Positions 21,837-32,051 of a DNA stretch of 34,354 nucleotides are shown here, in pieces (the stretch's first letter is position 1; each line of letters opens with the position of its first letter). The notes beneath the pieces are model-generated. The model saw only the letters and a list, made by a program, of their open reading frames with translations. It was not told the DNA's origin and searched no databases. The position numbers were made by a program, and so were the translations under genes. Origin of the DNA: Gemmatimonadota bacterium (lineage in GTDB: Bacteria > Gemmatimonadota > Gemmatimonadetes > Gemmatimonadales > GWC2-71-9); contig QHTP01000035.1 in the NCBI GenBank assembly GCA_003220855.1, forward strand, positions 1-34,354, given 5' to 3'.

Positions 21837-23319
21837 CTCGGGCCTCGCGGCGCAATCATCCGTCCCGCGGCCGCGCACCGCGGCGCTGCGCGGCTCCCTG
21901 GAGCACCGGCTGGCGCAGCTGGTCGACGCGCCGCCGTTCGACCGCGCCACGTGGGGGATGTACGTGGTGGACGACCGCGGCCGCGTGGTGTACCAGCGCA
22001 ACGCCGATCATTTTTCCGTGCCGGCGAGCAACACCAAGCTCGTCGTCACCGCGGCCGCGGCCGTGCTGCTGCCGGTGGATTACCGCGTGACGACGAGTCT
22101 GTACGTGAACGGGCGGGTGGAGGGCGGCGTGCTGTACGGCGACCTGATCCTCTACGGGCGGGGCGATCCCACGTGGTCGGAGCGGTGCTTCTCCGTCGAC
22201 ACGCTCGCGCCCGGCGCCTGTGACTCGGTGTCCACGGCCATCGACGCCATCGCGGACTCCGTACGCGCCCGCGGCATCCGGCGCATCACGGGAAAGCTGG
22301 TGGGCGACGGGTCGTATTTCGAGCCGACCCTGATTCACTACGGCTGGAACGCGTGGGACCTGACGTGGTGGTACGCGGCCCCGGTTTCGGGCCTCGGGTT
22401 CCACGACAACAGCCTGGACTTCCACATCGCCCCCGGGCCCGCCGTGGACGCACCGCCGGTGATCACGTGGTCACCCGACCTGGGGCTCATCACGTTCGAA
22501 AACCGCGCCCGCACTGTGCCCGCGGACTCAACATCGACCATCGGCGACAACTTCTTCCGGAGCGGCGCGGGGTGGAACGTGCGGGCGGAGGGGACGGTCG
22601 CACTCGGCAAGAAGCCATGGGTGGAGAGCGTGGCGCTTCCGGACCCGAACCTCTACGCCGCGCGGGCCCTGGCGACGTCGCTCGGACGCAAGGGCGTGGC
22701 GGTAGCGGGGGGCGCGCTGAGCACCACCGATTCGCTCGCCTACCGAGCCGCCCGGTGCTGCGGGTCGCCCCTCGTCGAATACCGCGGGCGCCCGCTGCCC
22801 GACGTCATCTTCCCGATCCTCAACACCAGCCAGAACTGGTTCGCCGAAATGCTGCTGAAGGTGCTGGGTCGCGAGATCAAAGGAGAGGGCAGCTGGGCGG
22901 CGGGGCTCGACGTGGAGCGCCGTTTCTTGATCGATTCGGTGAAGATCGACTCCACCGCCTTCGCGCTCGAGGACGGGTCGGGGCTCGCGGCCGGCAACCT
23001 GGTCACGCCGCACGCGTTCGCCCAGCTCCTGGCGTACATGCACCGCCATCCCAAAGGAGCGGCGTTCGTGGCCGCCCTGCCGCACGCGGGACAACCGGGG
23101 TCGCTCCTCAAGCGCTTCGTCGGCACGCCGCTCGAAGGCCGCGTGATCGCGAAGACCGGCAGCATCGATCGCGTCAACAGCCTGTCGGGCTACATCGAGC
23201 AGCCGAATGGCCGGACCGTCACGTTCAGCGTCCAGGCGAACGGGCATGCGGTTCCCTACCAACAAATGTTGGCGCAGATCGACTCGGTAGTGGTTGAAAT
23301 AGGAAAGACGTCACGGTAA
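21802..23319 (+). CDS. dacB: PBP4-type D-Ala-D-Ala carboxypeptidase/endopeptidase (peptidase S13)
   Basis: The 505-residue protein begins with a convincing signal peptide (MRKLILASLTISSGLAAQS) and has the three penicillin-binding motifs of family S13: SxxK as S76-N-T-K79, SxN as S343-Q-N345, and KTG at 451-453. S13 enzymes remove the terminal D-Ala from peptidoglycan stem peptides or cut cross-links in the periplasm. The long segment between SxxK and SxN matches the extra domains of PBP4. The signal peptide fixes the start at 21802, so the gene overlaps the permease by 35 bases in another frame. With a peptide-type binding protein and permease upstream, a role in recovering wall peptides is plausible; this is inference. 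Confidence 0.94.
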   Translation: MRKLILASLTISSGLAAQSSVPRPRTAALRGSLEHRLAQLVDAPPFDRATWGMYVVDDRGRVVYQRNADHFSVPASNTKLVVTAAAAVLLPVDYRVTTSLYVNGRVEGGVLYGDLILYGRGDPTWSERCFSVDTLAPGACDSVSTAIDAIADSVRARGIRRITGKLVGDGSYFEPTLIHYGWNAWDLTWWYAAPVSGLGFHDNSLDFHIAPGPAVDAPPVITWSPDLGLITFENRARTVPADSTSTIGDNFFRSGAGWNVRAEGTVALGKKPWVESVALPDPNLYAARALATSLGRKGVAVAGGALSTTDSLAYRAARCCGSPLVEYRGRPLPDVIFPILNTSQNWFAEMLLKVLGREIKGEGSWAAGLDVERRFLIDSVKIDSTAFALEDGSGLAAGNLVTPHAFAQLLAYMHRHPKGAAFVAALPHAGQPGSLLKRFVGTPLEGRVIAKTGSIDRVNSLSGYIEQPNGRTVTFSVQANGHAVPYQQMLAQIDSVVVEIGKTSR

Positions 23320-23377
23320 GACGTCACGGGAACGACGTCGTCCCGTGACGCCTCTCCGCGGCGGTTCTCCGTGACGT
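23308..23377. terminator. Nested CGTCACGG inverted repeats between convergent genes (likely bidirectional terminator)
   Basis: The word CGTCACGG occurs at the dacB 3' end and again at 23322-23329; its complement CCGTGACG occurs at 23343-23350 and 23369-23376. The central pair forms a hairpin with 9-bp arms CGTCACGGG (23322-23330) and CCCGTGACG (23342-23350), around a loop that is itself palindromic (ACGACGTCGT). It lies between converging genes, which suits a terminator, although no strong T-run follows directly. Confidence 0.6.
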
Positions 23378-23394
23378 AGTTCCCTTGACGCCTT

Positions 23395-24417
23395 TTAGTC
23401 TTCTGTCTGCCCGAATAACGCCATGTTGCTCGAATGCCCCGGCTCGACCTTCGCCGCGGGATTGATGAAGTGCACCGCATGGTTGACGGCGATGGCCGCC
23501 TCGGCCGCGCCCGTCGCGATCAGCTTGAGCTTGCCCGGATAGGTGGTGATGTCCCCGGCGGCGAACACGCCCGGCAGGTTGGTGGCCATCGTCTGCGAGA
23601 CCTTGATCTCGCCCTTCTCGATGTCGAGCCCCCACTGCGCGATCGCGCCGAGTGAGGAGATGAAGCCGAGCTGCGGGATCACACTGTCGACCGCGAGACG
23701 CTCCTCGAGCTTGGTCTTGCTGTTGTAGATGGTCACGGCGTCTATGCGCTCGTCGCCGTGGATCATCCTCAGCTCCCAGAACGTGCGGAGCTCCATTTTG
23801 CCCGCCGCGGACAGCTCCTGCACCTGACGCACCGTCGCGGCGTGCGCGCGGAAGCCGTCGCGGCGGTGGATCATCACGATGGACCGGGCGATCCCCTGCA
23901 GGTTCACGGCCCAGTCGAACGCCGAATCACCGCCGCCGACCAGCAGGACGCGTTTGCCGCTGAACAGCTTCGGATCGAGCACGCGGTCGTGCAGCCCTTT
24001 CCCGTACCAGCGGTCCACGTCCTTGAGGGGCAACTTGCGGGGCGTGAACGCGCCGATGCCGCCCGCGATCAGCACCGTGCGCGACGGGTACTCGTCCCTT
24101 TCCGTCACGACCGTGAACGCCGGCTGCCCGTTCTCCGAGTCGCGCTTCAGGCCCGTCACGTTCTCCCCGAGGTGGACCGGCGGCTTGAACTGGAACGCCT
24201 GCTCGGCCATGCCCTTCACGAGGTCTTTGGAGAGGACCTTCGGGAAGCCCGCCACGTCGAAGATGTACTTCTCGGGATATAGCGCGGTCAGCTGCCCGCC
24301 GACCTGGTCGAGGTTGTCGATCAGGCGGCAGGATGCCCCGCGCATCCCGGCGTAAAACGCGCCGAACAACCCGGTCGGACCGGCGCCGATTATGGTGATA
24401 TCTTTGACGTCCTGCAT
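23395..24417 (-). CDS. Ferredoxin/flavodoxin-NADP reductase, thioredoxin-reductase-like (YumC type)
   Basis: From ATG 24417 the product is 340 residues. It has an FAD-binding loop IIGAGPTGLFGAFYAG (G11, G13, G16), GGQLTALYPEKYIFDVAG near 42-60, a second dinucleotide loop RVLLVGGGDSAFDWAV, and a C-terminal FAD contact GVFAAGDITTYPGKLKLIATGAAEAAIAVNHA. The CxxC pair of true thioredoxin reductases is absent, which points to the FNR type found in Bacillus YumC and green sulfur bacteria. Those enzymes exchange electrons between NADPH and ferredoxin or flavodoxin. The 484-residue track ORF runs into the divergent cobalamin gene and is rejected. It is transcribed alone, divergent from the adenosyltransferase gene across 48 bases. 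Confidence 0.93.
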   Translation of the reverse strand: MQDVKDITIIGAGPTGLFGAFYAGMRGASCRLIDNLDQVGGQLTALYPEKYIFDVAGFPKVLSKDLVKGMAEQAFQFKPPVHLGENVTGLKRDSENGQPAFTVVTERDEYPSRTVLIAGGIGAFTPRKLPLKDVDRWYGKGLHDRVLDPKLFSGKRVLLVGGGDSAFDWAVNLQGIARSIVMIHRRDGFRAHAATVRQVQELSAAGKMELRTFWELRMIHGDERIDAVTIYNSKTKLEERLAVDSVIPQLGFISSLGAIAQWGLDIEKGEIKVSQTMATNLPGVFAAGDITTYPGKLKLIATGAAEAAIAVNHAVHFINPAAKVEPGHSSNMALFGQTED

Positions 24418-24465
24418 GGGCTTCAATCGTAACGGAAGCCCCGGAGAGAAGGGAGAGGGGAGCGG

Positions 24466-25017
24466 TTGAAGATCTATACCAAGACGGGGGACGGTGGAGA
24501 AACAGGGCTGTTTGGCGGCGGCCGGACGCCCAAGGACAGTCCCCGCGTGGCGGCGTACGGCGAAGTGGACGAGTTGAACGCGGCGCTCGGGCTGGCGCAC
24601 GCGCTCGCACCCGAGCAGTTCGCTGATGCCCTGCTGCAGAGCATCCAGCGCGATCTGTTCACCATCGGGGCGGAGCTCGCGACGCCGGACCCCGACAAGC
24701 TGCACAAGGCGCTCTCCCGCAGCGGCGCGGCCATCGGCCAATCGGACATCGCCGCGCTCGAGGACGCCATCGATGGACACGAGTCGCGGCTCGAGCCGCT
24801 CAAGAACTTCATTGTGCCGGGCGGAACGCCCAAAGCCGCGGCGTTGCACCTAGGGCGCACGGTGTGTCGCCGGGCCGAGCGCGCCGTCGTCGCCCTGGCG
24901 CGCCACGAGCAAACCAACCCCGCGATCCTCCGGTACCTGAACCGCCTGTCGGATCTCCTGTTCGTCCTGGCGCGCGCCGCCAACGCGCACGCCGGACGCC
25001 CCGACGTCAAGTGGTGA
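24466..25017 (+). CDS. PduO-type cob(I)alamin adenosyltransferase
   Basis: This enzyme moves the adenosyl group of ATP to cob(I)alamin to make coenzyme B12. The 183-residue product begins KIYTKTGDGGETGLFGGGR, the ATP-binding N-terminal signature of the PduO/MMAB family. It continues with the helical bundle features VDELNAALGLA, FTIGAELATP, FIVPGGTPKAAALHLGRTVCRRAER and NRLSDLLFVLAR, all conserved in the family. The start is TTG at 24466, preceded by a purine-rich GGGAGAGGGGAG tract. The stop overlaps the aroB GTG start (GTGA). No other cobalamin gene is nearby. Confidence 0.95.
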   Translation: MKIYTKTGDGGETGLFGGGRTPKDSPRVAAYGEVDELNAALGLAHALAPEQFADALLQSIQRDLFTIGAELATPDPDKLHKALSRSGAAIGQSDIAALEDAIDGHESRLEPLKNFIVPGGTPKAAALHLGRTVCRRAERAVVALARHEQTNPAILRYLNRLSDLLFVLARAANAHAGRPDVKW

Positions 25018-26114
25018 CGATCCGCGTCGCCACCGCGGAGCAGCGCCACACCTCGTACGACATTCTGATCGACCGCGGACTGCTCGCGGATCTGCCCGCC
25101 CTGGTGAAAGCCGCCTGCCCAGCCGCGCGCTATGCCGTGATCACCGACTCGCACGTCGCGACGCTGTGCGGGGCGAAGATCGTTACACGACTCCACGACG
25201 CCACGTTGCAGGCCCAACTCTTCGAGTTCCCGGCGGGCGAGTGGAACAAGACGCGAGAAACGTGGGCGATGCTCTCCGACAAGATGCTCGTGGCGCAGTT
25301 CGGCCGCGACAGCGCCGTGCTGGCGCTCGGCGGAGGCGTCGTGGGCGACGTCGCGGGGTTCGTCGCGGCCACGTACCTGCGGGGCGTCCCGTACATCCAG
25401 GTACCCACCACGCTGCTCGCGATGATCGACTCGTCGATCGGCGGCAAGACGGGTGTCGACGTCCCGGCCGGCAAGAACCTGCTGGGCGCCTTTCACCAAC
25501 CTCGTCTCGTCGTCGCCGACCTGGACCTGCTCGGCACCCTGCCGCCGCCGCAGCTCGCCGCGGGGATCGCCGAAGCGGTCAAGCACGGGGTGATCGCCGA
25601 CGCCGACTACTTCGCATTCCTGGAGCGCGAGCACCACGCCGTCACGACCAAGCAGCCCGCCGCACTCGAGCAACTGGTGCGGCGCTCCGTGGAGATCAAG
25701 GCGGGCGTCGTCGCTGCGGACGAGCGTGAGACCGGCCGTCGCGCGATCCTCAACTTCGGGCACACGGTGGCGCACGCGGTCGAGGCGACGGCGCAGTTCG
25801 CCGTGCTGCACGGCGAGGCCGTCGCGATCGGCATGACGTACGAAGCGCGGCTCGCAGAAGTGCTGGGGATCGCCGAACCGGGAACCGCCAATCGCATCGC
25901 GCGGCTGCTCGAGCGCTGCGGTCTCCCGCTCGAGCTCCCCGAGAGCGCCACGGCGGACCGCCTGCTCGCGACGATGCAGCTCGACAAAAAGGCGCGCGCC
26001 GGAACGGTGCGGTTCGCGCTGCCGGAGGCGGTTGGACGCATGCACGCCGACGGCAGTAGCTGGACGGTGGCGGCCCCCGAGCGCGCGGTACGGGACGTGC
26101 TCGCGGGGCGGTAG
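25014..26114 (+). CDS. aroB: 3-Dehydroquinate synthase AroB
   Basis: AroB converts DAHP to 3-dehydroquinate in the second step of the shikimate pathway, using NAD and a divalent metal. From GTG 25014 the product is 366 residues, the normal length. It shows the NAD-binding GGGVVGDVAGFVAATYLRGV, the substrate loop DSSIGGKTGVDVPAGKNLLGAFHQP, and metal ligands in AEAVKHG, LNFGHTVAHAVE and LHGEAVAIGM. GTG 25011, one codon earlier, is an alternative start; the 416-residue track ORF begins inside the adenosyltransferase gene. The 4-base overlap indicates translational coupling to that gene. A weak bulged hairpin follows the stop. Confidence 0.97.
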   Translation: MTIRVATAEQRHTSYDILIDRGLLADLPALVKAACPAARYAVITDSHVATLCGAKIVTRLHDATLQAQLFEFPAGEWNKTRETWAMLSDKMLVAQFGRDSAVLALGGGVVGDVAGFVAATYLRGVPYIQVPTTLLAMIDSSIGGKTGVDVPAGKNLLGAFHQPRLVVADLDLLGTLPPPQLAAGIAEAVKHGVIADADYFAFLEREHHAVTTKQPAALEQLVRRSVEIKAGVVAADERETGRRAILNFGHTVAHAVEATAQFAVLHGEAVAIGMTYEARLAEVLGIAEPGTANRIARLLERCGLPLELPESATADRLLATMQLDKKARAGTVRFALPEAVGRMHADGSSWTVAAPERAVRDVLAGR

Positions 26115-26115
26115 T

Positions 26116-26142
26116 CGCAGCTTGGTACTAATTGCAAGTGCG
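26116..26142 (+). terminator. Weak bulged hairpin after aroB
   Basis: CGCAGCTTG (26116-26124) can pair with CAAGTGCG (26135-26142) with one bulged G, giving an 8-bp stem and a 10-base loop. No T-run follows, so it is at best a weak terminator. Confidence 0.25.
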
Positions 26143-26149
26143 TCAACAA

Positions 26150-26356
26150 CTTCCCACATGATTCTGCACCTCTCCACATGCCGCGCAACTCGCAGTCAAC
26201 GCGGCATCAACATCCATTTCTCCACACGCGATGTGGATAGTGGACAAACGCGGGAGTGGTGCTACGCACTAATAATTTGTGATGTGGAAAAATGGATAGA
26301 TTTGCACCATTCGCCGGCGATTCCTATATTGGGCGCCGGTCGTAGAGTTTTCCACT
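26150..26356. promoter_or_regulatory. Cluster of DnaA-box-like TCCACA/TGTGGA words upstream of the sigma factor
   Basis: In the 278-bp spacer between aroB and the sigma-factor gene I find TTCTCCACA (26218-26226), TGTGGATAG (26232-26240) and TGTGGAAAA (26283-26291). Each differs by one base from the DnaA box TTATCCACA or its complement. Weaker versions lie at 26150-26158, 26170-26178 and 26348-26356. The second and third strongest words flank the AT-rich stretch ACTAATAATTTGTGATG. TCCACA-CGCGA-TGTGGA is also a perfect short inverted repeat. Whether DnaA or another regulator binds is unknown. Confidence 0.5.
26302..26330 (+). promoter_or_regulatory. Promoter of the primary-type sigma factor gene
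   Basis: TTGCAC (26302-26307) and TATATT (26325-26330) are separated by exactly 17 bases and match 4 of 6 and 5 of 6 consensus bases. The start would fall near 26337, leaving a leader of about 56 bases with GGAG eight bases before the ATG. Confidence 0.65.
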
Positions 26357-26392
26357 GGCTCAACATACGTCTCCACCGTCGGAGCCCTAGCT

Positions 26393-27286
26393 ATGGAGCG
26401 GTCGAACGGAGGCAAGGCCAAGGCGTTCTTTCGAGCCAATCCTTCCGGCGCCTTCGACCAGTACCTGCAGGACATTCAGAAGCTCCCCCTCATCAAAGAT
26501 CCAGCTGAAGAACGCAGACTCGCGCGGCGCGTGCAACGGGGCGACGAAAAGGCCGCCGAGCGGCTCGTCACCGCCAACCTCCGCTTCGTCATCTCCTACG
26601 TCAAGAAATACCAGGGGCACGGGCTGGACCTGTCCGAGCTGGTAGCGATCGGGAACGAGGGGCTCCTCAAGGCGGTCAAGAAGTTCGATCCGGATCAGGG
26701 CGTGAAGTTCATCTCGTACGCGGTGTGGTGGGTGCGACAGGCCGTGTTGAAAGCCCTGGCCGAGCAGACCCGCAGCGTGCGGATCCCGTTGAATCAGAAC
26801 TCGCAGCTGATCCGCATGAGCCGCACCGAGACCTATCTGTCGCAGGAGCTCGGGCGCGAGCCGACCGACGACGAGATCGCGATGGCGCTCCAGGACACCG
26901 TCGAGAACGTCCGCACCGCGCGTCGCATGACGGCGGCGGAGCTGTCGCTCGACGCTCCGGTGGACCGGAGCGACAAGGACGCGGCCACGCTGGGCGAGCG
27001 GTTCGCCGGCCAGGAAGGCGGCGAAATCGAGGAGAAGACCGACGGCAAGCTGATGCGTGAGTTCATCGACCGCATCTTCCAGAAGTATCTCACCCCCCGC
27101 GAGCGCAAGATTCTCTATCTCTATTACGGCCTCGAAGAAGGTAGTGAGGCCATGACGCTGGAGAAAATCGGAGCGCTGATGGGCGTGACGCGAGAACGCA
27201 TCAGGCAGATACGCGAACGGGCGTTCGAGAAGCTGCGGGAGTCGCCCGATGGACGGGCGCTCAAGGGGTTCTGGCGAGCCGCTTAG
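26393..27286 (+). CDS. rpoD: Primary-type sigma-70 factor (RpoD/SigA), short form
   Basis: The 297-residue protein has sigma regions 1.2 (FDQYLQDIQKLPLI, about 21-34), 2 (LVTANLRFVISYVKKYQGHGLDLSELV through YAVWWVRQAVLKALAEQ), 3, and 4 (from about 233, LTPRERKILYLYYGLE, then the helix-turn-helix TLEKIGALMGVTRERIRQIRERAFEKLR). Region 1.1 and the non-conserved insert are missing, as in the short housekeeping sigma factors of Bacteroidota and relatives. It directs RNA polymerase to -35/-10 promoters. The segment between regions 3 and 4 is acidic (GQEGGEIEEKTDGK). GGAG sits 8 bases before the ATG. The gene stands alone with its own promoter and is followed by a strong hairpin. Whether it is the only primary sigma factor cannot be seen here. 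Confidence 0.93.
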   Translation: MERSNGGKAKAFFRANPSGAFDQYLQDIQKLPLIKDPAEERRLARRVQRGDEKAAERLVTANLRFVISYVKKYQGHGLDLSELVAIGNEGLLKAVKKFDPDQGVKFISYAVWWVRQAVLKALAEQTRSVRIPLNQNSQLIRMSRTETYLSQELGREPTDDEIAMALQDTVENVRTARRMTAAELSLDAPVDRSDKDAATLGERFAGQEGGEIEEKTDGKLMREFIDRIFQKYLTPRERKILYLYYGLEEGSEAMTLEKIGALMGVTRERIRQIRERAFEKLRESPDGRALKGFWRAA

Positions 27287-27394
27287 ACGGCGAGACGTCG
27301 AGACGGGTGGCGGGCTTCAGCGAGAGGGGTCAGGAACGGCATTCCTGACCCCTCTTCCCTAACCGCCGCTCGCCGTCTGACCGTCTCGCCGTCT
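27285..27394. terminator. Nested inverted repeat and terminator hairpin after the sigma factor
   Basis: An inner stem of 14 perfect base pairs, AGAGGGGTCAGGAA (27323-27336) with TTCCTGACCCCTCT (27342-27355), closes a 5-base loop. An outer pair of 13-base arms, AGACGGCGAGACG (27285-27297) and CGTCTCGCCGTCT (27382-27394), encloses it. The outer arms are built from 8-bp units (AGACGGCG; CGCCGTCT). The structure begins in the sigma-factor stop codon and ends in the glcD promoter. Confidence 0.8.
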
Positions 27395-27405
27395 GTCTGT
27401 ATACT
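27377..27405 (+). promoter_or_regulatory. Promoter of the glcDEF operon, probably leaderless
   Basis: CTGACC (27377-27382), 17 bases, then TATACT (27400-27405; 5 of 6 matches). The glcD ATG at 27413 begins 7 bases after the -10 word, which places it at or next to the expected transcript start. No Shine-Dalgarno site fits in between. Confidence 0.6.
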
Positions 27406-27412
27406 ATTACCC

Positions 27413-28912
27413 ATGTCCCGAGACGTCGCGTCGTTGGTCGATACGCTCGCCGAGATCGTCGGCCCGGGTCACGTGCGCACGGCGCTCCCGGAGCGCGTGA
27501 CCTACGCGAAGGACGGGCTGCCCACGCACCGGCGCGTGCCCGGGGTCGTCGTGCTGCCGGGGAGTCGGGACGAGGTGATCGCGGTCGTGCGGCTGCTCGG
27601 CGCGCTCGGCATGCCGTTCGTGCCACGCGGCGCGGGCACCGGGCTCTCGGGCGGCGCCCTCGCCGACGGCGACGCCGTGCTCATCGTGCTGACCCGGCTG
27701 AATCGCATCCTCAAGATCGACGCCCGCAACCGGCTGGCCGTGGTCGAGCCCGGCGTCGTGAACATCCGTCTCTCCGCCGCGGCCGCACCGCACGGGTTGC
27801 AGTATACGCCCGACCCGTCGAGTCAGACCGCCTGCACGATCGGCGGCAACGTTGCCGAAAATGCGGGCGGCCCGCACTGCCTCAAGTACGGGGTGACGGC
27901 GACGCATGTGCTGGCGCTGGAGGTGGCGCTGGCGGACGGGCGCGTCGTCGAGCTGGGCAGTCCCGGCGGCGAGCCGTGGGGCCCCGACCTGGTCGGGCTG
28001 TTCGTCGGCTCGGAGGGCAACTTCGGCGTCGCGACGCGCATCACCGTGCGGCTGCTGCCCGTCGCACGGGCGGTTCGCACGCTGCTCGCCGACTTCACCT
28101 CGCTGCGCACCGCCGGGGAGGCGGTGTCCGCGGTGATCGCCAGCGGGATCGTGCCCGCCGCGCTCGAGATGATGGACCAGTCGTGCATCCGCGCGGTGGA
28201 GGACTCGGTGTACGCGGCCGGCTACCCGCGCGATGCGGCGGCGGTGCTGCTCGCCGAACTCGACGGCGGGCACGAAGTGGCGGTGGCGGCGGATGCCGAG
28301 ACCATCGAATCCGTGCTGCGCGCGCACGGGGCACGGTCGGTGCGCGTGGCCGCGGACGCGCAGGAGCGCGAGCGGCTCTGGCTCGGCCGCAAGAAGGCCT
28401 TCGGCGCGATGGGCCGGCTGTCGCGCGACCTGGTGGTGCAGGATGCCGTGGTTCCCCGCTCCACGCTTCCCGACGTGCTCGAGACGATCGCCCGGATCGC
28501 CGCCGAGTACGGGCTCACGGTCAGCAACGTGTTCCACGCCGGCGATGGCAACCTGCACCCCAACATCTCGTTCGACGGCCGCACGCCCGGCCTGCGCGAG
28601 CGGGTGGAGGCGGCCAGCGCGGAGATCATGGCCACCTGCATCGCCGCCGGCGGCACCATCACGGGAGAGCACGGCATCGGACTCGACAAGCTCCGCTACA
28701 TGCCGCTCCTGTTCGACGGTGATTCGCTCGCCGCCATGCGCGCGGTGCGCCGCGTGTGGGACCCGGACGAGCGGGTGAACCCGGGCAAGGTGGTTCCGGT
28801 GCACGCGTGTCGGGAGTGGGCGGGAACTCGAAACGCGGAACGCGGAACGCGGAACGCGAGAGGGAACGCTCGTTCCGACTTCCGCGTTGCGACTTCCGGG
28901 TTGGACACATGA
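27413..28912 (+). CDS. glcD: Glycolate oxidase FAD-linked subunit GlcD, with palindromic-element tail
   Basis: GlcD is the FAD subunit that oxidises glycolate (or D-lactate) to the 2-oxoacid and passes electrons through GlcE/GlcF. The 499-residue product has the PCMH FAD domain (VVLPGSRDEVIAVVRLL; PFVPRGAGTGLSGGALADGD; NVAENAGGPHCLKYGVT; GLFVGSEGNFGVATRITVRLLP). The C-terminal oxidase domain has FHAGDGNLHPN and GEHGIGLDKLRYMPLLF. The conserved family sequence ends near VNPGKVVPVHACREW. The last 28 or so residues (TRNAERGTRNARGNARS and onward) come from a 78-bp palindromic heptamer element that carries the frame to a stop overlapping the glcE start. D-lactate dehydrogenase is an alternative; the glcDEF order favours glycolate. 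Confidence 0.94.
   Translation: MSRDVASLVDTLAEIVGPGHVRTALPERVTYAKDGLPTHRRVPGVVVLPGSRDEVIAVVRLLGALGMPFVPRGAGTGLSGGALADGDAVLIVLTRLNRILKIDARNRLAVVEPGVVNIRLSAAAAPHGLQYTPDPSSQTACTIGGNVAENAGGPHCLKYGVTATHVLALEVALADGRVVELGSPGGEPWGPDLVGLFVGSEGNFGVATRITVRLLPVARAVRTLLADFTSLRTAGEAVSAVIASGIVPAALEMMDQSCIRAVEDSVYAAGYPRDAAAVLLAELDGGHEVAVAADAETIESVLRAHGARSVRVAADAQERERLWLGRKKAFGAMGRLSRDLVVQDAVVPRSTLPDVLETIARIAAEYGLTVSNVFHAGDGNLHPNISFDGRTPGLRERVEAASAEIMATCIAAGGTITGEHGIGLDKLRYMPLLFDGDSLAAMRAVRRVWDPDERVNPGKVVPVHACREWAGTRNAERGTRNARGNARSDFRVATSGLDT
28825..28902. repeat. Palindromic heptamer element in the 3' end of glcD
   Basis: The left arm (28825-28856) holds tandem GCGGAAC units; the right arm (28871-28902) is its imperfect complement, 25 of 32 positions pairing, around a 14-base loop. 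It encodes a stop-free peptide in the glcD frame (RNAERGTRN...SDFRVATSGL). A partner element of the same layout lies in glcF. Confidence 0.85.
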
Positions 28913-30120
28913 GCCTCCTGGATCGCGTCCGCGCCCTGCTGGGCGACGAAGCCGTGGAGGTCGCGGCGACTCCGGACGGCGTGCCGCGCGTCGCACCCGC
29001 CTCCCCCGACGCCGTGGCGCTGCTGCTCGGCACCGCCCGCGAAGAGGGGTGGCGGGTACGCATCGAGGGCGCCGGCAGCTGGCTCCCCGCCGACGCGCCG
29101 GCCGACCTGGCCCTCACGACCCGCCGGCTCGACAAGATCCCCGCCATCGAGCCCCAGGACCTCTCCGCGACGGCCGAGGCGGGGATCGGGTGCGACCTGC
29201 TGCGCCAACAGCTCGCCGACCGGGGCACCTGGCTCGCGCTCGACCCCCCGGGCCTCGCGGGCCGCACCGTCGGGTCCATCGTCGCGACGGCGACGGCCGG
29301 TCCCCTGCGACAGGGATTCGGACCCGTGCGCGACCATCTGCTCGGCGTCACGTTCGTCACGGGGGACGGCCGGCTGGTGCACAGCGGTGGCCGCGTGGTG
29401 AAGAACGTCGCGGGGTACGATCTCACCCGCCTCGAGGCGGGCGCGTTCGGGGCGTTCGGGGTGATCGTGCTGGTCCATCTGCGGCTGCGCGCCCTGCCCC
29501 GCGCCGACCAGACGCTCGCGCTCGAGGGGTCGCGCGAGGACCTGACGCAGGTGGCCGAAGACATCGCCGCGGCCGGCATCCAGCCTGCGGCGCACGAACT
29601 CATGTCGCCCGCGCTGGCACGGCGCGAACGCTGGTTGCTCGCTGTCCGGTTCGCGGGCTCGGCGGCCCTCGTGGCCGCGGAGGAAGCCGGGCTGCGCGCC
29701 GCCACGGGGGGACGGTTTGCGGCACTCCGGGCCGACGAGGGCCATAGCCTGTGGATGCGCGCCGCCGAGAGCTTCGCCACCCGGCCCGTGGCATTCCGCA
29801 TCGGCGGCCTCCCCGACTCGAGCGACGAGCTGCTCGACCTGCTGCAGCACCAGGTAGGGGACGAGTGGATCTCCGCGAGCCCCGCCATCGGGGCGATCCG
29901 GTGGGGGGGCGACGCCACGATCGATCGGCTCAAGCGCGTGCGCCGCACGCTCGCCGGTCTGGAAGTGCCGCTCACCCTGGAGCGCGCTCCCTGGCCCGTG
30001 CGCTCCGCCGTCGGCCATTTCGGTGCCTACCGCGAGGGGGTGGGCCCCCTCGTCGCCGGGCTGCGGCGGACCTTCGATCCCGGGGAAGCGTTTGTCGTAG
30101 CGGCCGAAGCAGCTGAATGA
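28909..30120 (+). CDS. glcE: Glycolate oxidase FAD-binding subunit GlcE
   Basis: From ATG 28909 the product is 403 residues. It has a shortened PCMH FAD domain as in GlcE: VEVAATPDGVPRVAPASPDAVALLL, WRVRIEGAGSWLP, DLSATAEAGIGCDLLRQQLADRGTWLALDPPG, GRTVGSIVATATAGPLRQGFGPVRDHLLGV and KNVAGYDLTRLEAGAFGAFGVIV. The last of these is especially typical of the subunit. The ATG overlaps the glcD stop (ATGA), and the stop overlaps the glcF start in the same way, so the three subunits are translationally coupled. The track ORF begins at 28756 inside glcD because the heptamer element is open in this frame too; the added residues are not family sequence. Confidence 0.92.
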   Translation: MSLLDRVRALLGDEAVEVAATPDGVPRVAPASPDAVALLLGTAREEGWRVRIEGAGSWLPADAPADLALTTRRLDKIPAIEPQDLSATAEAGIGCDLLRQQLADRGTWLALDPPGLAGRTVGSIVATATAGPLRQGFGPVRDHLLGVTFVTGDGRLVHSGGRVVKNVAGYDLTRLEAGAFGAFGVIVLVHLRLRALPRADQTLALEGSREDLTQVAEDIAAAGIQPAAHELMSPALARRERWLLAVRFAGSAALVAAEEAGLRAATGGRFAALRADEGHSLWMRAAESFATRPVAFRIGGLPDSSDELLDLLQHQVGDEWISASPAIGAIRWGGDATIDRLKRVRRTLAGLEVPLTLERAPWPVRSAVGHFGAYREGVGPLVAGLRRTFDPGEAFVVAAEAAE

Positions 30121-31370
30121 CGGATCGCGGGGGGTTCGCCGCGCTGGACCCCTGCGTGCATTGCGGTTTTTGCCTCCAGGCGTGCCCCACCTTTCTCGCG
30201 ACGGGCGACGAAGCCGACAGCCCGCGCGGTCGCATCGAGCTGATGCGCGCGCTCGAGGCGGGCGAGCTCGCCCCGGACGACCCCACCCTCGCGCTGCATC
30301 TCGATCGTTGCCTCGGGTGCCGGGGCTGCGAGCCCGTCTGTCCCTCGGGCGTGGGCTACGGCCGTGGGCTCGCGACAGCCCGGGCGCTGATCACGGCTCG
30401 CCGGGGCGTACCGCCGCTCGCGCGCCTCGCCCTCGGGGCGATGACGGGCGCAGGCGTGTCGCGGGTGGTGTACGCCCTGGCGCGGGCGCTGCGAACGACG
30501 GGCATCCCCCGCTGGCTCGCGGGTTGGGGGCGGTTCCGGTTCGCGATGGGGATGCTCGCGGCGACAAAGCCAGTGCGGAATGCAAAATCCGCAATGCGGA
30601 ATCGAGGCTCGCCCGTCAATTCCGCATTCCGCACTCCGCATTCCGCATTGACCCCCGTCAGTCTGTTCCGCGGATGCGTCATGGACGGCCTCTTCTCCCA
30701 CGTGCACGACGCCACCATCCGCACGCTCGAGGTGAACGGGTACTCGGTGCGTGAAGTGCCGGAGCAGGTGTGCTGCGGCGCGCTGCACGAGCACGCCGGG
30801 CTCGAGCCGGACGCGCGCCGCCTCGCCCGGCTCAACATCGCCGTCTTCGGGGACGGGGACGAGCCGATCGTCGTGAACAGCGCCGGTTGCGGCGCGATGC
30901 TCAAGGAGTACGGCCACCTGCTCGACGGGGACGGCGCCCCGTTCGCCGCCCGCGTCAGAGACGTCACCGAGCTGCTCGCCGCGCGGGGGCCGCGGCCGGG
31001 CGCGCCGATCGACGCCACCGTCGCCTACGATCCCCCCTGCCACTTGCTGCACGCGCAGCGCATCGCCGAGCCTCCCGAGCGGGTGCTGGGGGCCATTCCG
31101 GTGCTGCGGCTCGTCAAGACGCCGGACGCCGCGCAATGCTGTGGCAGCGCGGGGCTGTTCACGCTGCTCGAGCCCGCGATGTCTCGCGCGGTGCTGGCGC
31201 CCAAGCTCGAGACGCTCGCCGAGGCCAGGCCGCAGGTGGTCGCGACCGGCAATCCCGGGTGCCTGATGCAGCTCGGCGCCGGGCTCGCGGCCGCCGGCAT
31301 TCGCGCGGTCGCGCGTCATCCCGTGGAGCTGCTCGACGAGTCGTACGCCGCCGCGGGGTATTATGCTTGA
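30117..31370 (+). CDS. glcF: Glycolate oxidase iron-sulfur subunit GlcF, with in-frame palindromic element
   Basis: GlcF passes electrons from the flavin subunits to the membrane quinone pool. The 417-residue product has two [4Fe-4S] motifs, C13-x2-C16-x2-C19-x3-C23 and C65-x2-C68-x2-C71-x3-C75. Two CCG domains follow: LFRGCVMDGLF...VCCGALHEHAGL, and YDPPCHLLHAQRI...QCCGSAGLF. Between the ferredoxin part and the first CCG domain, residues about 152-178 (PVRNAKSAMRNRGSPVNSAF and onward) are encoded by an 80-bp palindromic heptamer element that keeps the frame. This is a linker region in the family, so activity is probably kept. The start overlaps glcE. Confidence 0.94.
   Translation: MTDRGGFAALDPCVHCGFCLQACPTFLATGDEADSPRGRIELMRALEAGELAPDDPTLALHLDRCLGCRGCEPVCPSGVGYGRGLATARALITARRGVPPLARLALGAMTGAGVSRVVYALARALRTTGIPRWLAGWGRFRFAMGMLAATKPVRNAKSAMRNRGSPVNSAFRTPHSALTPVSLFRGCVMDGLFSHVHDATIRTLEVNGYSVREVPEQVCCGALHEHAGLEPDARRLARLNIAVFGDGDEPIVVNSAGCGAMLKEYGHLLDGDGAPFAARVRDVTELLAARGPRPGAPIDATVAYDPPCHLLHAQRIAEPPERVLGAIPVLRLVKTPDAAQCCGSAGLFTLLEPAMSRAVLAPKLETLAEARPQVVATGNPGCLMQLGAGLAAAGIRAVARHPVELLDESYAAAGYYA
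30571..30650. repeat. Palindromic heptamer element inside glcF
   Basis: Arms 30571-30602 and 30619-30650 (32 bases each) pair at 26 of 32 positions around a 16-base loop. The right arm is tandem ATTCCGC/ACTCCGC units, period 7. It is in frame and stop-free within glcF, and its peptide aligns without gaps to that of the glcD element. Confidence 0.88.
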
Positions 31371-31376
31371 AGGACG

Positions 31377-32051
31377 ATGACGGAAGCACTGCTGTTCGAC
31401 TACAACGGCGTGATCACTGACGATGAAGAGCAGCACCGGGCGACGTTCGCCGAGCTGCTCGCCGAGGCGGGGATCGCGCTCAGCCGCGACCAGTACTACG
31501 CCGATTATCTGGGGTGCGACGACCGCACCTCGTTCCTGCACGCGTTCCGCCGCGCCGGCAAGCCGCTCGACTCCGTCATGTTGGAAACGCTCGTCGCCCG
31601 GAAATCCCAGGCCTACGCACGGCTGACCGGGACGGCCCCCGCGCTGGTGCCGGGGGCGGCCGCGTTCGTGCGTGCGGCGAGCGGCCGGTTTCGCATCGGG
31701 CTCGTGTCGGGAGCCCAGCGGCGTGAAATCGAGCCGGCGCTCGCCGCCGCGGGGCTGGCCGACTGTTTCGAGGTGATCGTCGCCGGCGAGGACGTTCCCC
31801 GCTGCAAGCCCGACCCGGCCGGTTATCTGGCCGCCCGTACGGCCCTCGCCCGGGACCGGCCGCTCGAGCGGCGCCGCTGCGTGGTGATCGAAGACTCGCT
31901 CGCCGGCCTGCGCGCCGCGCGCGCCGCCGGGATGCGCTGCGTGATGCTCACGACCAGCCATTCCGCCGCTGCGCTCGCCGCCGCCGATCTGGTGTGGTCC
32001 TCGTTCGCCGGACATGATCCGGCGGAGCTGGCCACGCTGGGGGACGCATGA
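31377..32051 (+). CDS. HAD-like protein with Asp-to-Asn change in motif I
   Basis: The 224-residue protein has the fold and cap of the beta-phosphoglucomutase/phosphoglycolate phosphatase group of HAD hydrolases. Motif I is LFDYNGVITD, so the nucleophile D8 is present but the general acid/base Asp two residues later is N10. Motif II (LVSGAQ), the lysine of motif III (RCKPDPAGYL) and motif IV (VVIEDSLAGLRAA) look intact. It follows glcF by 6 bases, with AAGGA overlapping the glcF stop as ribosome site, and overlaps the next gene by 4. Next to glycolate oxidase a phosphoglycolate phosphatase would make sense as the source of glycolate. The N10 change leaves catalysis and substrate uncertain. 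Confidence 0.85.
   Translation: MTEALLFDYNGVITDDEEQHRATFAELLAEAGIALSRDQYYADYLGCDDRTSFLHAFRRAGKPLDSVMLETLVARKSQAYARLTGTAPALVPGAAAFVRAASGRFRIGLVSGAQRREIEPALAAAGLADCFEVIVAGEDVPRCKPDPAGYLAARTALARDRPLERRRCVVIEDSLAGLRAARAAGMRCVMLTTSHSAAALAAADLVWSSFAGHDPAELATLGDA

Follow-up and report, generated by a model that had tools for sequence, protein, structure and literature searches.

Inverted heptamer arrays in glycolate oxidase genes of a Gemmatimonadota bacterium belong to a dispersed family with conserved sites and genome-specific units

Two palindromes in the glycolate oxidase genes

The window analyzed here, a stretch of 34,354 nucleotides from a Gemmatimonadota bacterium (assembly GCA_003220855.1, contig QHTP01000035.1), carries the glycolate oxidase genes glcD, glcE and glcF, with a palindromic element inside glcD and another inside glcF (Table 1). 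The gene identities proposed in the initial annotation are confirmed by Pfam, and a scan combined with translation shows that both palindromes are real, in frame and located where that annotation had placed them. The glcD element lengthens GlcD by ~25 residues beyond the EWxG motif, and the stop codon lies directly 3' of the element, whereas the glcF element occupies the GlcF interdomain linker, between CCG/Fer4-type domains. The earlier division of the glcF element into 32-nt arms and a 16-nt loop describes the identical element with another arm boundary. One of its arms includes a local inverted unit, AAAATCCGCA, the counterpart of which in the related genome G006 is GCGGAATTCGG. Both elements are predicted to form long hairpins at the RNA level, with folding z scores against dinucleotide shuffles of -6.5 (glcF) and -2.5 (glcD). 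In this one 34-kb window, each glc palindrome taken alone represents a modest excess over a first-order Markov control, and an Rfam scan of positions 23000-31500 returns no family above the gathering threshold.

Translation gives a GlcD C-terminus of ...EWAGTRNAERGTRNARGNARSDFRVATSGLDT and an internal GlcF peptide of ...RNAKSAMRNRGSPVNSAFRTPHSAL..., exactly as first read. The two peptides had been considered meaningful in that they match in the same orientation and phase; however, this match is an automatic outcome of arrays with a 7-nt period. A tandem unit of a length not divisible by 3 meets all codons in every frame, and (GCGGAAT)n thus yields ...RNAECGM... in all three frames, with ...IPHSAFR... 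from the complement. The agreement in orientation and phase arises because the 7-nt period gives one cyclic peptide in every frame, and the same peptides appear in either orientation because the element is a palindrome. The shared phase is therefore forced by the period and is uninformative on common descent or peptide function, and the identity of the cyclic peptide in all frames is reason to reject the idea that the two inserts are homologous or functional as peptides. The further proposal that the elements are twins, one duplicated from the other, is not supported either, as their units differ (GCGGAAC in glcD, GCGGAAT in glcF). Approximately 70% of 7-mers with 4-5 G/C are free of stop codons on both strands and in every frame.

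Table 1. Features of the window and paired arms enclosing coding DNA at other loci
Feature	Position	Strand	Description
Sigma-70 family factor gene	26393..27286	+	profile match
glcD	27413..28912	+	FAD-linked glycolate oxidase subunit; Pfam
glcE	28909..30120	+	FAD-binding subunit; Pfam
glcF	30117..31370	+	Fe-S subunit, Fer4 and two CCG domains, element between domains; Pfam
glcD element, unit GCGGAAC	28825..28902	no strand	32-nt arms, 78% complementary, 14-nt loop
glcF element, unit GCGGAAT	30571..30650	no strand	35-nt arms, 80% complementary, 10-nt loop
Octamer-armed (AGACGGCG) palindrome	27285..27394	no strand	around strong inner hairpin, between sigma factor gene and glcD
Palindrome with GACGTCACGG-type arms	23302..23395	no strand	between convergent genes
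Arms around conserved coding DNA	L007:7189-7374, L007:5021-5187, L009:8815-9074, L070:937-1199		HflX, RarA-like, PDH E2

A dispersed family at conserved sites with changing units

The genomes compared are drafts resembling metagenome-assembled genomes throughout; the source genome was surveyed on individual contigs, and units were called by a simple script and genes by a small purpose-written caller based on codon usage. The arm pattern TTCCGCRTTSCGNNTTCCG has 40 matches in the source genome and 0 for a reversed-pattern control, which places the family far beyond chance. The pattern is present in 10/10 genomes of the genus, with 1-137 matches each, is patchy across other genera of the family and has no match in 16 genomes sampled from other families of the order. 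A de novo scan of 153 kb from two congeners recovers 12 strong palindromes versus 0 in a Markov-3 control. The density of strong copies is ~7-9 per 100 kb in the genus, whereas other genera and families, G019 excepted, have 0-5 per 100 kb. A strict two-arm pattern finds the same heptamer palindromes in Acidobacteriota, Planctomycetota, Gemmatimonadota, Bacteroidia and Microbulbifer. Of the common element family suggested initially, the part that stands is thus a dispersed palindromic family that tolerates coding sites, with many further copies in this genome and its relatives; the descent of the glc pair from each other is not supported.

The elements share an architecture in which a G-rich array of ~4-5 heptamers (in some cases octamers or decamers) is followed by a loop and then by an inverted, C-rich partner. 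The heptamer units include GCGGAAC, GCGGAAT, GCGGATT, GCGGAGT, GGGAAAC and GGGACTC, with octamers such as AGACGGGT and GGACGGGC and decamers such as GGTGGAGGTT; the arms span ~27-42 nt with a best period of 7, and also of 8 and 10, and are spaced by ~10 to >400 nt. The polarity is fixed, with the C-rich partner to the right of the G-rich array (within 1 kb to the right for 27/61 arrays and to the left for 2/61). Elements lie between genes, where several overlap the upstream stop codon by 1-5 nt, at gene ends, and inside genes, among them those for HflX, NAD synthetase, an asparaginase-like protein, a radical-SAM/DUF512 protein, a ComF-like phosphoribosyltransferase and a RarA-like ATPase. In the HflX, RarA-like and PDH E2 genes, the arms enclose 100-200 nt of conserved coding sequence, so that one inverted pair amounts to two separate in-frame inserts per protein. 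A different recurrent perfect hairpin, ACCCCGGGCGnnnGCCCGGGG, occurs at the glcD end of G005 (L059), where it occupies the site of the glcD element, and at L068:3215-3286 and L200:14619.

The GlcF linker holds an element in every member of the genus with a recovered glcF and in two other genera, and the units differ: GCGGAAT in the source genome and G006; the GGTGGAGGTT type in G001, G009, G005 and G007; and GGCGGTGGAA, GGTTAGGC, GGGAGCG and GCGGAAC in G002, G008, G003 and G024, respectively. The GlcD site after EWxG is likewise occupied with changing units, GCGGATT or GCGGAGT/AAT in relatives. Relatives beyond the clade that bears the elements have a GlcD that stops shortly after EWxx and a short GlcF linker; the orthologue alignment confirms that they lack exactly these segments, and a palindrome at these glc sites is mostly missing in more distant relatives. 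The residues are not conserved among orthologues and other copies are plentiful, which leaves the proposal of a dispersed family in place against both findings that had been named as able to overturn it. By alignment, the inserts fall in variable linkers and loops. In G022 (L032), the GlcF linker contains GTCATCCCGAG...CTCGGGATGAC, a hairpin of a further type that looks widespread, and the linker therefore accepts several repeat families.

Twenty sites of the source genome were compared at syntenic positions in G001, G009, G006 and G007. Of the usable relative segments, 49/55 hold a palindrome that beats all 60 shuffles, at a mean flank identity of 86%; site 14 is empty in G006. The sites are old, with elements in place throughout the genus and in two additional genera, and the element sequence is replaced per genome. 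At sites in called genes, 15/15 length differences are multiples of 3 (7/7 among the non-zero ones), and the same holds for 7/7 non-zero differences at sites 2, 3 and 8, which lie in or at coding sequence, while at the remaining intergenic sites the fraction is the chance third (9/28). This frame constraint at coding sites indicates that the arms are read through, not removed, during the change of units, and from the reading frames we infer that elements inside genes are translated. At L007:1971-2072, the source genome has a GCGGATT palindrome where G001, G009, G006 and G007 hold ~290 extra bp, acpS-like (holo-ACP synthase), at L077, L097, L114 and L125; the element may mark a deletion junction.

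The units are homogeneous within genomes and switch between sister species, so that a genome can be said to have a dialect. Same-unit pairs within genomes number 181, versus a mean of 107.7 (sd 8.2, maximum 149) in 5,000 permutations. Exact triple-unit counts, given as GCGGATT/GCGGAAC/GCGGAAT, are 32/3/9 in G001, 2/35/1 in G009, 1/0/19 in G006, 9/16/0 in G007 and 2/8/6 in the source genome; the dominant unit is GCGGATT in G001, GCGGAAC in its sister G009 and GCGGAAT/GCGGAGT in G006. The sisters G001 and G009 are 95% identical in glcF and 91-93% identical over the region, yet their units differ at 11/11 comparable heptamer sites, with GCGGATT versus GCGGAAC at 10/11. The two arms switch in coordination even where 105-122 nt of conserved coding sequence lie between them, as observed at sites 8 and 9 (RarA and HflX).

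Several G001 elements also have a common 16-nt loop resembling CGAnGnnCGnnnnTCC, whereas the orthologous loops of the source genome and G009 are often 23-41 nt long; the G001 loops changed along with the arms, which indicates that the whole short element was replaced. A half-switched state is present at site 15 in G009 and G007, where the 5' arm is a perfect GCGGATT x5 and the 3' arm is still the old TTTCCC. In addition, elements of the source genome and G009 with 36-48 nt loops (for example, L007:1192, L218 and L121) share an inner hairpin core like GAGCGTCG...CGAGCGACC across dialects, and the loop size classes (~16, 24 and 40 nt) may therefore be homologous.

Two further members in the window were overlooked by the initial annotation. 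The palindrome between the sigma factor gene and glcD has a predicted RNA minimum free energy of -77.6 kcal/mol (z -8.7), and its inner hairpin is terminator-like. The octamer arms vary by genome (AGACGGCG, AGACGCAC, AGACGGGT or AGACGCCG), whereas the inner hairpin GAGGGGTCAGGAA..TTCCTGACCCCTC is kept at the syntenic sites in L051, L052, L054, L055, L057, L059 and L060, so that the arms change far more rapidly than the enclosed terminator. An extra LON-domain-like gene (...RELPIFPLPIVLFPGAPQPLHIFEPRYR...) lies between the sigma factor gene and glcD in G002, G006, G008, G005 and G007 (L054, L055, L057, L059 and L060), and there is none at this position in the source genome, G001 and G009. The site of the palindrome between the convergent genes is empty in G009 and G005 and holds a decamer palindrome, GGACGGTAGA, in G002.

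Proposed ectopic replacement and its alternatives

The reading that we favor, at a probability of about 0.58, is ectopic recopying or replacement among palindromes at fixed sites, which leads to concerted evolution across the genome. An existing palindrome would probably be opened at its hairpin by a nuclease or by fork stalling, and a second copy elsewhere in that genome would then provide the template for its repair or for a template switch, via the shared GCGGA/GGGA core. Such a replacement would cover the arms and often a short loop while the flanks stay; slippage would keep the units tandem, and template switching within the element would keep the arms complementary. Inside genes, only frame-preserving and stop-free outcomes at loops, linkers and termini would survive, and hairpins between genes may have an additional role at mRNA ends. 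The elements themselves are most likely selfish or neutral passengers. As a more tentative extension, which is possible but which we would not yet back, a dedicated trans-acting process (an enzyme or a recombination pathway) may rewrite hundreds of arrays to one dialect at fixed positions, essential genes included, arrays of this kind being present in Gemmatimonadota, Acidobacteriota, Planctomycetota and Bacteroidota.

Several points weigh against ectopic replacement. Neither a copying enzyme nor a donor-recipient pair was identified in the genomes compared, and copying in trans is for this reason deduced from within-genome homogeneity. It would be unusual for RecA-type conversion to act between arms that are ~71% alike in tracts of 30-90 nt. 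Where the loop is long (RarA, HflX and site 17), it is retained while both arms switch, so that the arms would need separate conversion. The source genome is mixed, with no single dialect, some sites resist switching (the 8-mers at sites 3 and 11), and all 20 sites were picked for the presence of an element in the source genome.

The main rival dispenses with exchange between loci: stems would be kept by selection on mRNA stems or by template switching, slippage would drive the turnover of the arrays, and a mutational or selective preference common to the lineage would make all arrays of a genome drift to one unit. Stems are known to arise and to be repaired by template switching (PMC8794818), the complementarity of the arms survives complete sequence change, and the inverted unit of the source glcF element resembles, against its G006 counterpart, a template-switch event. 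However, sisters at 91-95% identity would require ~16 directed changes per element in at least 10 elements, the loops and their lengths are homogenized too in G001, and single arms switch to perfect five-unit arrays of the other unit, not stepwise. We regard this explanation as unlikely, though deserving of serious weight.

Mobilization in trans of REPIN-like elements by a RAYT (a Y1 transposase) is improbable. The paired inverted repeats with a spacer, the many copies and the lineage-specific sequence types do recall REPIN populations (PMC3116915), but no PF01797 match is present in the element-rich genomes G002, G006 and G007 (G002 and G007 being 93-94% complete), matches are present in the element-poor G013, G015 and G022, and the elements lie inside genes and form tandem arrays. 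Homologous recombination of short element alleles between species, with no process within the genome, is quite improbable as the source of the unit mosaic. It is suggested by the glcF elements of the source genome and G006, which are almost identical although the closest relatives of each carry another type; nevertheless, the flanks of the shared element are at the background identity of ~77-85%, so exchanged tracts would be confined to the element, and the presence of one unit at nearly every site of a genome is left unexplained.

A drive in which the heptamer acts as a DNA uptake signal and the dialect follows the receptor, as in Neisseriaceae, would account for species dialects of a short word (PMC3630211), but it is very improbable and largely refuted, as isolated heptamers outside the arrays show no excess (GCGGAAC in G009, 23 observed versus 25.8 expected) and the sequence is confined to paired arrays. 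The synthesis of arrays on an RNA template by a telomerase-like or retron-like reverse transcriptase, which the G-rich strand pointing to the center from both sides, like head-to-head telomere fusions, and the perfect, recent arrays might suggest, has a negligible probability, and RVT_1-type enzymes are refuted by the lack of an RVT_1 (PF00078) match in 25 genomes with positive control genomes. A loss of SbcCD that would permit palindromes was also considered and rejected: an SbcD/Mre11-like match, nearly always below the curated cut-off, occurs in every genome, element-rich or not, and element-rich and element-poor genomes therefore show no contrast.

Relation to known repeats and significance

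The closest known kind is the G-rich heptamers of Xanthomonas (GGGAATC) and Nostoc (GGGGA(T/C)T), which form ~185 dispersed arrays per genome of ~four units, with 70-75 convergent inverted pairs, positions near or overlapping stop codons, the same gene context for 83% between two species and a function that is unknown (Rehm et al. 2015, PMC4692102). The present family has in common with them the tandem G-rich units, at least ~4 in number, the dispersal, the convergent inverted pairs, the adjacency to stop codons and a gene context that is conserved between species, here four congeners. In Xanthomonas and Nostoc, a single unit type per genome is described, coding sequence is strongly avoided, and units are not described as switching between species (PMC4692102). 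Here, in contrast, several units switch by genome, the arms are usually paired, and many copies lie in frame in housekeeping enzymes.

Rickettsia palindromic elements (RPEs) reside in both coding and non-coding DNA, are inserted in frame and translated, and fall into families that each have their own consensus. The present elements resemble them in being palindromes in frame in genes, with length differences at coding sites in multiples of 3, a segment that is missing outside the clade and a presumed translation. Unlike RPEs, they form no conserved sequence family: heptamers are arrayed in tandem, loops are free, units change, and the phyla are unrelated; RPEs are named in PMC10969869. REPINs share the inverted pairs with a spacer, the many copies and the lineage-specific types, but they are extragenic, non-tandem and tied to RAYT (PMC3116915), whereas many copies here are intragenic, in tandem arrays, and in genomes (G002, G006 and G007) without a RAYT match. 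The genome-specific dialect of a short word is also a property of the uptake signals of Neisseriaceae (PMC3630211), from which the heptamers differ in that the isolated word outside arrays is as frequent as expected. Nematomorph mitochondrial genes likewise contain inverted repeats within translated sequence, but there both arms encode conserved protein sequence (PMC6649704), whereas here the arms occupy variable linkers, loops and termini and are members of one dispersed family.

No paper on the heptamer words and peptides themselves was found in the open literature, subscription papers being outside the search. New features are that sister genomes differ in unit at sites they have kept, that the arms are tightly paired and that copies lie in frame in housekeeping proteins, and genome-wide rewriting into an own dialect in this form is reported for no known bacterial repeat family. 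The concerted evolution of dispersed, unlinked sites usually requires mobile copies or gene conversion; here, the positions stay over the long term while the content is replaced genome-wide, between some species pairs that are >90% identical and with the reading frames of enzymes unbroken. Low-complexity peptides that recur in predicted proteins of soil bacteria (RNAECGM...IPHSAFR and ADCGLRI...NPQSAIR) are explained as stop-free 7-nt arrays, which calls for caution before such peptides are named conserved motifs. The origin of the puzzling excess of heptamers in bacterial genomes thereby becomes testable, by looking for donor loci, for elements caught half-switched and for the enzyme responsible.

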